From Chloroflexota bacterium (GTDB lineage Bacteria > Chloroflexota > Anaerolineae > Anaerolineales > VGOW01), in assembly GCA_016213135.1 (NCBI GenBank), contig JACRBQ010000063.1:1-64000 (forward strand): a stretch of DNA of 64,000 nt. The letters are read 5' to 3'. The translations under genes and the position numbers were made by a program. Under the pieces are notes generated by a model. The model worked only from the letters and a program-made list of their open reading frames with translations, was not told the origin of the DNA and did no database searches. Positions 5,664 to 10,785 of this stretch are shown in pieces. The stretch's first letter is position 1, and every line of letters starts with the position of its first letter.

Positions 5664-8570
5664 ATGAGTGACAGCCCACAACCGCCCGGATTGGACATTC
5701 TGAAAATTGCAGTTAGCCGGATCAAAGACCCGGTGTTTTTGTTTGGCTTGGCCGTCATCATTGCATTGGCTCTGTTTGGCGCGCAGATTCCGGCGACGTT
5801 CGTCAATTTGATCTATTTCGTCGTCGTCGGGGCGCTCATTGCCTATACCGCCCTGCGGGTGGTGGCCGAGGTGACCAAAGCGCGACGCGAGTGGGAGGTA
5901 GGTCAGAAGCCGGTTGTTTCGCCATCTCAACCCATGACAATCGTTGACAACTCCGGCGTATCCGCATCACACGGCAGCGTCGCCGGCGGAACGGTGGCCG
6001 TGGCCGGCAGTGTGTATGGCGATATCGTCATTGGCGCTTTACCTGCCTCCGCGCCGCCTGAAGGACTACGCGTGGCGTACCTCGGTTGGCTGATAGAGCA
6101 GTGCCGCGCCGTGTCGCTAGCCGGAGTGGATCGCAAAAGCATCAGTGAGGAGACAAGGTCTGATCTCGATCTGGCGGCGGTGTATACCGCACTGATGACT
6201 CAACAAACGGAAAAAATCGATTCCAAGAATACCTCGCCTGAGTTGGAGGGTAGAGACGCCCGTCTCTCGGCGCTCGAAATGCTGAACGCCCAAGAGCATC
6301 TGGCCCTGCTGGGCGATCCCGGTTCGGGCAAAAGCACGTTTGTCAATTTCGTGGCGTTGTGCATGGCCGGTGAAATGTTGAGCCGCGCCGATGCGAATCT
6401 GGCCTTGCTCACGACGCCCCTACCTGATGAAGAAAGACGCCCACGCCGCAAGGATGAGAAACCGCAACCCCAACAGTGGAAATACGGCGCGCTGATTCCG
6501 GCGCGGGTGATCCTGCGTGATTTTGTGGCGCGCGGCATGCCGCCGTCGGGCAAGAAAGTTGGCGGCGATACGCTATGGAATTTCATTGTCGCCGAATTGC
6601 CCGATACCGCCCGCGATTTTGCGAAACCTTTGCGCGAGGAGTTGTTGAACAAGGGCGGCTTGCTGTTGTTGGACGGGCTGGACGAAGTCCCGGAAGCCGA
6701 CGACCGCCGTGAGCAGGTAAAAACCGCTGTGCAGGGTTTCGTCGCCGCGTTTCCGAAAGTGCGCGCGCTCGTCACCAGCCGCACCTACGCGTACCAGAAG
6801 CAGGCGTGGAAGCTGGACGGGTTTGCCGAAGCCGTGCTGGCTCCGTTTGGGCGGAGCCAGATTCACCGCTTTGTGGAGCGCTGGTATGCCTACGTTGGCC
6901 CGATACGCAACCTGTCGGTGAATGATGCCCAGGGCCGCGCCGTTCAACTCAACACCGCCATTGAACGAAGCCCGCGTTTGACTGAACTGGGCTCGCGCCC
7001 GCTGCTCCTCACGCTCATGGCCTCGCTCCATGCCTGGCGTGGCGGCACGCTCCCCGAACAGCGCGAACAACTCTATTCGGACGCCGTCGATCTTCTGCTG
7101 GATCAGTGGGAGAGCCAAAAAGTCAGGCGCAAATCGGACGGCTCATACGAGTTTCTTCAACCGAGTTTGGCCGAATGGCTCAAAGTGGATCAGAAGGCGG
7201 TGCGCGCACTGCTCAACCGGATGGCTTTTGACGCGCACCGTGACCAGCCGGATTTGCAGGGCACTGCCGACATTGCGCAGAAAAAATTGGTGGATGAGCT
7301 TCTGGCGCTCAATACGAATCCTGACGTGCGCCCGAAACGGCTGGAAGAATATCTCGGCTTGCGAACCGGATTGCTGGAGCCGCGCGGGGTCGGGGTGTAT
7401 GCGTTTCCCCATCGCACGTTTCAAGAATACTTGTCGGCCTGCCACCTCACGGGCGATACTTTCCCGGACGAACTGGCCGAGTTGTTGCGCGTTGATCCGA
7501 ATCGCTGGCGTGAAGTTGTTCTGCTGGCCGGAGCGAAAGCAGTGCGTGGCGCGGCCTCTGCCGCATGGAGTCTGGCCGAAGCTCTGTGCTACAAAGATCC
7601 ATCTCCCCGGCTCCCTTCCCTACAAGGGAAAGAGGAGGGGGCCGACCTATGGTGCGCATTACTCGCCGCCCAAGTGCTGATCGAAAACAACAGCCTCTCC
7701 AACACCGCCGAGCGGAACCGCCCGAAGGTTGATCGCGTCCGAGGCTGGCTGACTTATATCGTGAAACACGGCCTGCTTCCGCCGGTGGATCGCGCGCTGG
7801 CCGGCGAGGCGCTTTCTGTAATGGACGACCCTCGCGACCTCGAAGAACTCGCCCCCGTTCCTGCCGGGCCGTTCTGGATGGGGAGCGAAACGGAAGAATC
7901 ATTTGATGACGAGCGCCCTCAACATCAAGTGGCTCTGCCCGATTACAGAATTGGCAAGTATCCGGTGACGGTTGGATTGTGGAAGCGATTTGTGGCCGAG
8001 AGGAGTTATCAGTGCGACCCCGACTCGCTCGAAGGATTCGACAATCATCCGGCGCATGATGTATCATGGCGCGACGCGCGCGCCTTCTGCGACTGGCTGA
8101 CCGGCGAGTGGCGCAAAGCGGGGAAAATTGGCGCGAATGAAGTGGCGCGTTTGCCGACCGAAGCCGAGTGGGAAAAGGCGGCGCGCGGTCCTTCGGCAAG
8201 CTCAGGAGATAAGCGCGAGTGGCCCTGGGAGGGTGAATTTGACGCGAACAATGCCAACACCAGCGAGAGCGGCATTGGCCGGACGTGCGCCGTCGGTCTC
8301 TTTCCGTCGGGCGCTTCACCTAACGGCTGTTTGGATATGAGCGGGAACGTGTGGGAGTGGACGCAATCGAAACGCGAGAAATATCCATACGATGCAAAAG
8401 ATGGGCGAGAAGAACTTACAGGTAACGACAGTCGGGTTCTGCGCGGCGGCGCGTTCGGCCGCAGTGGTAGGGTCGCGCGCTGTGCGTCTCGTCTACCTCC
8501 CCGTCTTTCGTCTCAACGACTTCGGTTTTCGGGTGGCGGTCTCCCCCGGCTCTCGCTCTTGAATCTCTGA
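5664..8570 (+). CDS. Membrane-anchored NACHT NTPase fused to FGE-type variable domain (DGR target)
   Basis: The 968-residue protein starts at the ATG at 5664, preceded by AGGAGG at 5653-5658; an in-frame ATG at 5637 has no ribosome site. Two transmembrane helices (about 23-42 and 46-65) precede a linker, an NTPase N-terminal helical region (about 134-180) and a NACHT domain with Walker A GDPGSGKST (217-225) and Walker B LLLLDGLDE (333-341). A C-terminal FGE-sulfatase (SUMF1-like) domain spans about 729-968 (PAGPFWMGSE, RLPTEAEWEKAAR, DMSGNVWEWT, VLRGGAF). Its last about 45 residues are the DGR variable region. NACHT proteins are NLR-like signalling NTPases, and FGE-type folds are known DGR display scaffolds. 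The VR carries a 5-nt deletion relative to the template, so the last 27 codons are out of frame. The intact frame would end GFRVAVSPGSRS at a TGA at 8560-8562. A ligand-sensing or defence role is inferred. Confidence 0.9.
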   Translation: MSDSPQPPGLDILKIAVSRIKDPVFLFGLAVIIALALFGAQIPATFVNLIYFVVVGALIAYTALRVVAEVTKARREWEVGQKPVVSPSQPMTIVDNSGVSASHGSVAGGTVAVAGSVYGDIVIGALPASAPPEGLRVAYLGWLIEQCRAVSLAGVDRKSISEETRSDLDLAAVYTALMTQQTEKIDSKNTSPELEGRDARLSALEMLNAQEHLALLGDPGSGKSTFVNFVALCMAGEMLSRADANLALLTTPLPDEERRPRRKDEKPQPQQWKYGALIPARVILRDFVARGMPPSGKKVGGDTLWNFIVAELPDTARDFAKPLREELLNKGGLLLLDGLDEVPEADDRREQVKTAVQGFVAAFPKVRALVTSRTYAYQKQAWKLDGFAEAVLAPFGRSQIHRFVERWYAYVGPIRNLSVNDAQGRAVQLNTAIERSPRLTELGSRPLLLTLMASLHAWRGGTLPEQREQLYSDAVDLLLDQWESQKVRRKSDGSYEFLQPSLAEWLKVDQKAVRALLNRMAFDAHRDQPDLQGTADIAQKKLVDELLALNTNPDVRPKRLEEYLGLRTGLLEPRGVGVYAFPHRTFQEYLSACHLTGDTFPDELAELLRVDPNRWREVVLLAGAKAVRGAASAAWSLAEALCYKDPSPRLPSLQGKEEGADLWCALLAAQVLIENNSLSNTAERNRPKVDRVRGWLTYIVKHGLLPPVDRALAGEALSVMDDPRDLEELAPVPAGPFWMGSETEESFDDERPQHQVALPDYRIGKYPVTVGLWKRFVAERSYQCDPDSLEGFDNHPAHDVSWRDARAFCDWLTGEWRKAGKIGANEVARLPTEAEWEKAARGPSASSGDKREWPWEGEFDANNANTSESGIGRTCAVGLFPSGASPNGCLDMSGNVWEWTQSKREKYPYDAKDGREELTGNDSRVLRGGAFGRSGRVARCASRLPPRLSSQRLRFSGGGLPRLSLLNL
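6252..6267. repeat. AGAGACG/CGTCTCT palindrome inside the NACHT-FGE gene
   Basis: AGAGACG (6252-6258) and CGTCTCT (6261-6267) form a short palindrome read in frame as part of ELEGRDARLSAL. It matches the intergenic GTAGAGACG repeat at 28714-28760. Confidence 0.6.
7603..7641. repeat. In-frame CCCTTCCC/GGGAAAG repeat insert in the NACHT-FGE gene
   Basis: A pyrimidine-rich then purine-rich near-palindrome (CTCCCTTCCCTACAAGGGAA) is read in frame as KDPSPRLPSLQGKEEGAD. It interrupts a helical region between the NACHT and FGE domains. Its composition is unlike the flanking codons and like intergenic repeat DNA. Confidence 0.6.
8190..8207. repeat. CCTTCGGCAAGCTCAGGA repeat, in frame in the FGE domain
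   Basis: The 18-bp element is read as PSASSG within the FGE domain (RGPSASSGDKREWPW), in a loop after the EAEWEKAAR motif. A closely related copy is in frame in the reverse transcriptase at 9327-9348. Confidence 0.65.
8432..8551 (+). other. DGR variable repeat (VR)
   Basis: This 120-bp stretch aligns to the template repeat at 10240-10364. It differs at 22 of the 28 aligned template adenines and is identical at all 92 other aligned positions. A single 5-nt gap (template ACCGC, 10296-10300) falls between VR positions 8487 and 8488. The 3' part from about 8520 to 8545 (TCGGTTTTCGGGTGGCGG) is invariant and is the likely initiation-of-mutagenic-homing segment. Adenine-only divergence is the hallmark of DGR mutagenic retrohoming. 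Confidence 0.97.
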
Positions 8571-8604
8571 TCTCTGGACTCTCTGTTCTCTGTGGGGATG
8601 GGGT

Positions 8605-10239: not shown

Positions 10240-10364
10240 TCGGGTTCTGCGCGGCGGCGCGTTCAACAACAATAGTAGGAACGCGCGCTGTGCGTACCGC
10301 AACAACAACCACCCCGACAATCGTAACAACAACATCGGTTTTCGGGTGGCGGTCTCCCACGGCT
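10240..10364 (+). ncRNA. DGR template repeat (TR)
   Basis: The 125-nt template is homologous to the VR at 8432-8551. Its core is rich in AAC and AAT codons (phase [26 protein letters not shown]), the typical DGR solution that lets adenine mutagenesis sample many residues without creating stop codons. It carries 29 adenines; one lies in the 5-nt segment absent from the VR. It has the same orientation as the RT and lies downstream of avd, giving the order VR-RT-avd-TR. A frame through it is open but has no ribosome site and should not be called a gene. Confidence 0.96.
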
Positions 10365-10785
10365 GGCGCGACATCGCCGGAATTGCGGTTGAGCTTTCGG
10401 GCTGAACCGCCGAGGCGCCGGACGAGAGCCGGACCGGCTCTGGCCCTGGCCGCGAACGATCTCGAAGTTGAGATTCGTTCCGGGCAAATATCGAATCGGC
10501 TCGCGCCTCGCTGTGACAAGCCCGGCGCGAGCCAACCCCCTTGTCGACGCAATTTCCTAATTCTTCGGTCCTTCGGGTTTGTAAAAACCCTGAAAGTTAT
10601 TGCGCGCACGTTAGAGCTTCGTAAGAATATCCCCTGTGTGTTGACTCTGTCCCCTCCACGCTTTAGAATAGGCCAAGTAGGCGGTTGAATACTGAATCGC
10701 TGACGCGGAGTGGCTGAAAGCGGAAGCGTGTTTGGCGAGAACCTCGGCTGCTCCGCATCAGCGCAATCAGCGTCTCAGTGATTCT
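10365..10785 (+). ncRNA. Structured, gene-free 3' flank of the TR
   Basis: No credible gene lies between the TR and the DnaJ-like gene. The stretch holds clear stem-loops: GAGCCGG/CCGGCTC around 10426-10440, GGCTCGCGCC (10498-10507) with GGCGCGAGCC (10524-10533), and GGGTTT/AAACCC (10575-10590). In the Bordetella phage DGR, RNA adjacent to the TR is bound by RT-Avd and primes cDNA synthesis, so part of this flank is a candidate for that function. The boundary toward the DnaJ promoter is not determined. Confidence 0.5.

Follow-up and report, generated by a model that had tools for sequence, protein, structure and literature searches.

Organization of the locus

The window (the whole 64,000-nucleotide stretch of contig JACRBQ010000063.1 that was analysed, from an uncultured member of the Chloroflexota) contains a cassette with the order VR-RT-avd-TR, with the VR at the 3' end of a large target gene. 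The following features were located:

5664..8570, + strand: target gene, 968 aa (Pfam NACHT, 1e-11; FGE-sulfatase, 5e-44); 3' end frameshifted by a deletion in the VR
about 6573-6887, + strand: NACHT NTPase domain of the target (Pfam, 1e-11)
7845-8495, + strand: FGE-sulfatase/C-type-lectin-like domain at the target C-terminus (Pfam, 5e-44)
8432..8551, + strand: variable region (VR); 22/28 template adenines altered, 5 template bases absent at 8487/8488
8522..8545, + strand: IMH-like block of 24 nt in the 3' part of the VR, with an identical copy in the TR at 10335-10358
8605..8633, + strand: perfect 13-bp G+C-rich hairpin with a TTT loop, 53 nt past the VR
8760..9848, + strand: reverse transcriptase (RT) of a diversity-generating retroelement (DGR), 362 aa, with LPIGNLTSQ and YVDD motifs (profile matches; tree)
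9849..10190, + strand: Avd, 113 aa (NF033474, 98.2 bits against a cutoff of 80; bAvd Pfam, 6e-20; PHROG Avd; PDB 4dwl and 8ub7_B)
10240..10364, + strand: template repeat (TR), in frame (TR/VR alignment and frame check)
10376..10495, + strand: conserved structured RNA, Sp-like (model R1, 60.9 bits, E = 7e-14; the window is in the training set)
10498..10533, + strand: terminal hairpin of the TR-RNA, GGCTCGCGCC...GGCGCGAGCC

A preliminary description of this DNA had placed a DGR-type RT (SQ motif, YVDD) and an Avd between VR and TR, and both positions and motifs proved to be as given. Its list of parts was correct as far as it went, but overlooked the RNA downstream of the TR and the hairpin after the VR. 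Hydrophobicity analysis of the target revealed two hydrophobic segments at its N-terminus. The target is a NACHT protein with a membrane anchor and a C-terminal FGE/C-type-lectin domain, and is a putative immune protein. The C-type-lectin-like fold is usual in DGR targets.

Divergence between template and variable region

The counts reported for the TR and VR were reproduced exactly on recomputation. The 22 changed adenines became T in 10 cases, G in eight and C in four, while all 92 non-adenine columns are identical and the alignment contains a single 5-nt gap. If 22 mismatches were placed randomly over the 120 columns, all would fall on the 28 adenines with a probability of about 6e-19, a figure conditional on the adenine-lenient scoring scheme of the alignment; the pair was also recovered by a plain DNA search of the genome (E = 8e-25). 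Non-adenine substitutions, regarded in the preliminary description as evidence against a DGR, are absent here (0/92), and in the TR/VR pairs of relatives the differences amount to 1.0% at non-adenines as against 54% at adenines. By analogy with phage BPP-1, the 24-nt identical block probably serves as the IMH.

A search of the genome for further VRs had also been proposed. The other plain DNA matches to the TR (on contigs C104 and C44, and weaker ones) are short GC-rich chance matches and not VRs; two contigs, C140 and C99, carry VR/TR pairs of their own.

Reverse transcriptase and Avd

In a 90-row tree, which includes two group II-type RTs of the same genome, the RT lies inside the DGR clade and is split from the group II/SP RTs at an SH-aLRT of 100; because of the long branches of several phage rows, the tree was used for this split between DGR and group II RTs only. 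A placement outside the DGR clade, the other observation that could have counted against the initial reading, is thereby contradicted. The closest solved relative is 8ub7 (E = 4e-47), an entry whose chains are named as reverse transcriptase and Avd and which we take to be the BPP-1 DGR complex; the best group II RT scored 2e-17. The top NCBIfam models belonged to group II and DRT families, and none came near its cutoff (128 bits against a cutoff of 300 for group II), and the protein has an SQ motif instead of the SP of group II intron RTs. Other RTs in the genome (C105 and C120) carry the group II-type SP motif, and matches to the Avd model elsewhere in it (C118, C57, C54, C16 and C55) fall below cutoff. 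Relatives of the RT are almost all from Chloroflexota.

Frame of the target gene

The preliminary description located the VR correctly at the 3' end of the target and counted its adenines correctly, but mentioned neither the deletion nor the resulting break in the reading frame. The missing bases correspond to ACCGC at TR positions 10296-10300, with the counterpart absent at VR 8487/8488. The frame in which the target reads into the VR (RVLRGGAF...) is not the one in which it reads out; because of the 5-nt deletion, the target is shifted out of frame before its last beta-strand, and the conserved GFRVAV is not read. Its FGE-sulfatase Pfam match ends at model position 237 of 255, and the in-frame TR peptide matches the same model up to position 254. 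The current sensor allele is thus null, as read from the consensus of a fragmented draft assembly of 147 contigs. Since the TR is in frame, a fresh homing event from it would be expected to restore the frame of the sensor. The deletion itself could also stem from ordinary mutation after homing.

Second and third DGRs of the genome

The cassette in the window is complete, as first described, but it is not the only one; two further DGRs of the genome had been overlooked. Contig C140 carries a full second cassette (DGR2) with a 967-aa target (35% identical), an RT that is 75% identical and an Avd. The third (DGR3) lies on contig C99 (L146 of genome G000, locus 8700-12445), where a 1091-aa target contains NACHT-type P-loop motifs and an FGE domain. 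A TR and an Sp RNA are present there, and the contig ends before the RT, if any.

C140 15880-16004: VR of DGR2; TR at 17589-17716; 24/30 adenines altered, 0/95 others
C99 11883-12012: VR of DGR3; TR at 12195-12324; 18/30 adenines altered, 0/100 others

The C140 VR has a 3-nt deletion that leaves its target in frame. In C99 a TR codon AAG has become TAG in the VR and the protein terminates inside the VR, with no indel. When paired with their own templates, the VRs of the window (DGR1) and of DGR2 show no non-adenine mismatches, and the cross pairs show seven to eight, which rules out cross-homing between the two. As each VR matches its own TR alone, both DGRs home in cis.

Indels and null variants among relatives

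Indels relative to the TR were found in 13 of 59 TR/VR pairs (the window and C140 included), two of them after the conserved GFR block. Many lie at the TACCG/CAAC junction or within AAC runs. With C99 added to the set, the frame through the conserved end is kept in 51 of 57 targets and lost in six: the window (-5), L070 (+1), L091 (+1 in a G run), L097 (+19), L109 (-2) and C99 (TAG). The single-G insertion of L091 may be a sequencing error. The 19-nt VR insertion of L097 resembles the neighbouring template, and this target was scored as out of frame after inspection of the locus. At L097 4717-6054, the insertion fuses the reading frames of the target and of the RT gene behind it into a single long open frame. 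Broken targets make up two of three in the present assembly compared with four of 54 in relatives (Fisher 0.027, a post hoc comparison).

For AAC repeats, slippage by multiples of three nt has been suggested previously (PMC12875486). Indels that are not multiples of three fit the same cause, but would yield null targets.

Hairpins after the VR and other repeats

A hairpin follows the C140 VR at the same distance as in the window, with a different sequence. Across 59 loci, the longest stem found in the 160 nt after the VR has a median of 8 bp, compared with 4.7 in shuffled sequence and 5 after TRs. The target of BPP-1 needs such a hairpin/cruciform (PMC3240598). Two classes of hairpin were observed downstream of the VRs of relatives, one with a G-rich 5' arm and loops of 3-4 nt, the other with a C-rich 5' arm and GAA, GTAA or GTTA loops recalling the GRNA loop of phage DGRs.

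Two other repeats were noted. The short repeat CCTTCGRCNNGCTCAGG occurs at 8190-8206 and 9327-9343 of the window and at C140:16677-16693, with 10 genomic copies against zero for a reversed control pattern; it is read in frame within the target and within the RT genes of DGR1 and DGR2, where it adds about 8 residues. An inverted repeat, TGTCAACGAATG...CATTCGTTGACA, is situated between target and RT (window 8650-8730), and a similar one is found between mutS2 and dnaJ of L140, a genome of the same genus.

A structured RNA downstream of the TR

The pattern GCC-RGAAATGC-hairpin-CGAGGC ... GGCCG ... CCGGGCAAATA is found in the 120 nt that follow the TR, and after it comes the terminal hairpin. The C140 counterpart of this hairpin is followed by a T run, and the copy in the window lacks one. 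A covariance model, R1, was built from 19 sequences, which match it by construction. It matches 71 of 84 loci, once each and in either gene order, and directly downstream of the TR wherever a TR was mapped. Paired cells amount to 92.8%, and the covariation score is 0.560 (0.191+/-0.012 when shuffled, at most 0.084 when slid), although these figures are somewhat inflated by an alignment that was fitted to the model. RNAalifold independently recovers the same two main helices, with changes on both sides at all nine pairs. Within the class, R1 matches in 51 of 298 genomes; it was also R1 that located the third DGR, at the end of its contig.

Rfam gave no match at this RNA, including RF03022 even at E<=1, while the Bordetella phage BMP-1 locus matches RF03022 (Phage_DGR) at 104.7 bits. 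Weak Rfam hits over the locus to RsmV (17.5 bits) and sraA (24.1 bits, which is the VR hairpin) are far below gathering scores. A function for such a spacer is known from BPP-1 alone, where it serves both to recruit RT-Avd and to prime the synthesis of cDNA (PMC12875486). By analogy, the RNA described here may likewise recruit RT-Avd and prime cDNA.

Gene order and insertion site

The preliminary description was right that the TR lies downstream of both RT and avd, unlike the Bordetella phage order, but this arrangement is common. Same-strand TR/VR pairs were detected for 57 relatives of the RT (the window and C140 counted in), of which 29 have VR-RT-avd-TR and 17 the Bordetella order, VR-avd-TR-RT. 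A group of DGRs whose TR follows the RT had been defined already in 2012 (PMC3521204). Thus, the gene order is ordinary. The position of the TR relative to the RT switched about three times on the RT tree, and avd is directly upstream of the TR in almost all relatives, which indicates that avd and TR stay together as a unit and that it is the RT that changes place.

Three genomes of the same genus show mutS2 and dnaJ facing each other with 0.2-0.9 kb between them and no DGR. The corresponding interval in the window measures 5.3 kb and contains the cassette. Thus, the cassette and its target were either gained here or lost in the three relatives; a gain as a block between mutS2 and dnaJ is simpler than three losses.

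Comparison with known systems

The following hallmarks of a DGR are present at the locus: a TR/VR pair, an RT of the DGR clade, Avd, a C-type-lectin-like VR end, an IMH block with hairpin, and a spacer RNA. The Bordetella phage BPP-1/BMP-1 DGR has in common with it an RT with SQ, Avd, adenine-only TR/VR change, avd directly 5' of the TR, a structured spacer RNA 3' of the TR and a hairpin after the VR. Here, however, the RT lies upstream of avd-TR, the target is an immune-like NTPase and not a tail protein, and the RNA does not match RF03022, as that of BMP-1 does; conversely, R1 has no match in BMP-1. The BPP-1 hairpin lies 4-34 nt from the VR and has a GRNA loop (PMC3240598), compared with 53 nt and a 3-nt loop here. 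Group 2 of DiGReF (PMC3521204), with the TR downstream of the RT, shares the gene order and shows no essential difference.

Also among the closest known systems are cellular DGRs of clade 5 (as numbered by Roux et al., 2021, PMC8144416) whose targets are NACHT/STAND-CLec proteins (Dore et al., 2024, PMC10907252); they share the central NACHT NTPase and the diversified CLec/FGE domain. In these systems several DGRs may occur per genome, filamentous chloroflexi are among the hosts and the targets may be membrane-anchored, all of which agrees with the present case; the likeness to clade 5/5D is one of target architecture and host. NACHT-CLec proteins of multicellular bacteria are diversified by DGRs, and a role as antigen sensors in defence has been proposed for them, not shown (PMC10907252). 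The targets described here fit that class and, by analogy, may have a role in defence. Out-of-frame and stop-containing VRs were not found in the main text of that report. As a DGR, the system is of a well-known type; null VRs and the RNA were not found described in the literature searched, mostly outside subscription journals, which is not proof of novelty.

Proposed mechanism and alternative explanations

The adenine-only divergence, the RT tree and motif, the closest solved relatives (RT and Avd of the Bordetella phage DGR) and the Avd equivalog score bear out the original claim of a complete DGR with past mutagenic homing, as does the like signature of the two other, independent DGRs of the genome. 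The reading favoured here, with a probability of about 0.95, is that of a complete DGR, acquired as a block, that diversifies a NACHT/FGE sensor and whose current VR is a homing product minus 5 nt. The RT-Avd complex would reverse-transcribe an avd-TR-Sp transcript, making errors opposite adenines, and the resulting cDNA would replace the VR at the end of the membrane-anchored NACHT/FGE (C-type-lectin-like) sensor, the cassette having presumably been taken up between mutS2 and dnaJ. The 5 nt were most likely lost during homing, by RT slippage or template skipping beside the AAC run, and further homing from the intact TR could then return the target to frame.

The deletion might instead be an artefact of assembly or consensus calling at a hypervariable site of a mixed population, the real target being in frame. 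The draft genome is fragmented, and VRs are trouble spots for read mapping and assembly (PMC8144416, methods). All 120 remaining bases nevertheless fit the TR with no non-adenine mismatch, and merging of variants seldom makes a gap; another 12 pairs also have indels, frequently at this TACCG/CAAC spot, and the loss of function in C99 is a plain adenine-to-T change. An artefact is therefore considered unlikely. Decay into an inactive DGR with a pseudogene target would account for the frameshift and for the stop in the second broken target, that of C99, but we judge it quite improbable given that RT, Avd, TR frame, Sp RNA and hairpin are all intact and the C140 copy is in frame. Complete identity of VR and TR at non-adenines is, moreover, what a homing event too recent for mutations to have accumulated would leave behind. 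That the RT derives from a group II intron, a retron or a defence system, with the likeness of VR and TR due to coincidental gene duplication, could appeal only to the sub-threshold NCBIfam matches; the SQ motif, the tree position, the 8ub7 match, the adjoining Avd and the adenine-only divergence already contradict it, and hardly any weight is given to it.

Implications

A broader and frankly tentative proposal can be made, which we hold to be rather doubtful as a whole. Homing may regularly write null variants, as frameshifts when slippage occurs in AAC runs or as stops when AAG is mutated, which persist in the population; the element would then also switch an autoimmunity-prone NACHT sensor off and, via the in-frame TR, back on. 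The covarying RNA would be an undescribed RNA family of cellular DGRs with the priming and RT-recruiting function of the BPP-1 spacer. The conserved RNA is a marker by which DGRs can be located without their RT, and a candidate priming structure for cellular DGRs. Adaptive immunity in bacteria is a candidate function of DGRs that diversify NACHT sensors. A single genome in which one of three DGR targets is in frame and the other two have been disrupted by homing-type errors lends itself, as a natural test, to asking at what rate hypermutation destroys its target and whether such losses are tolerated.
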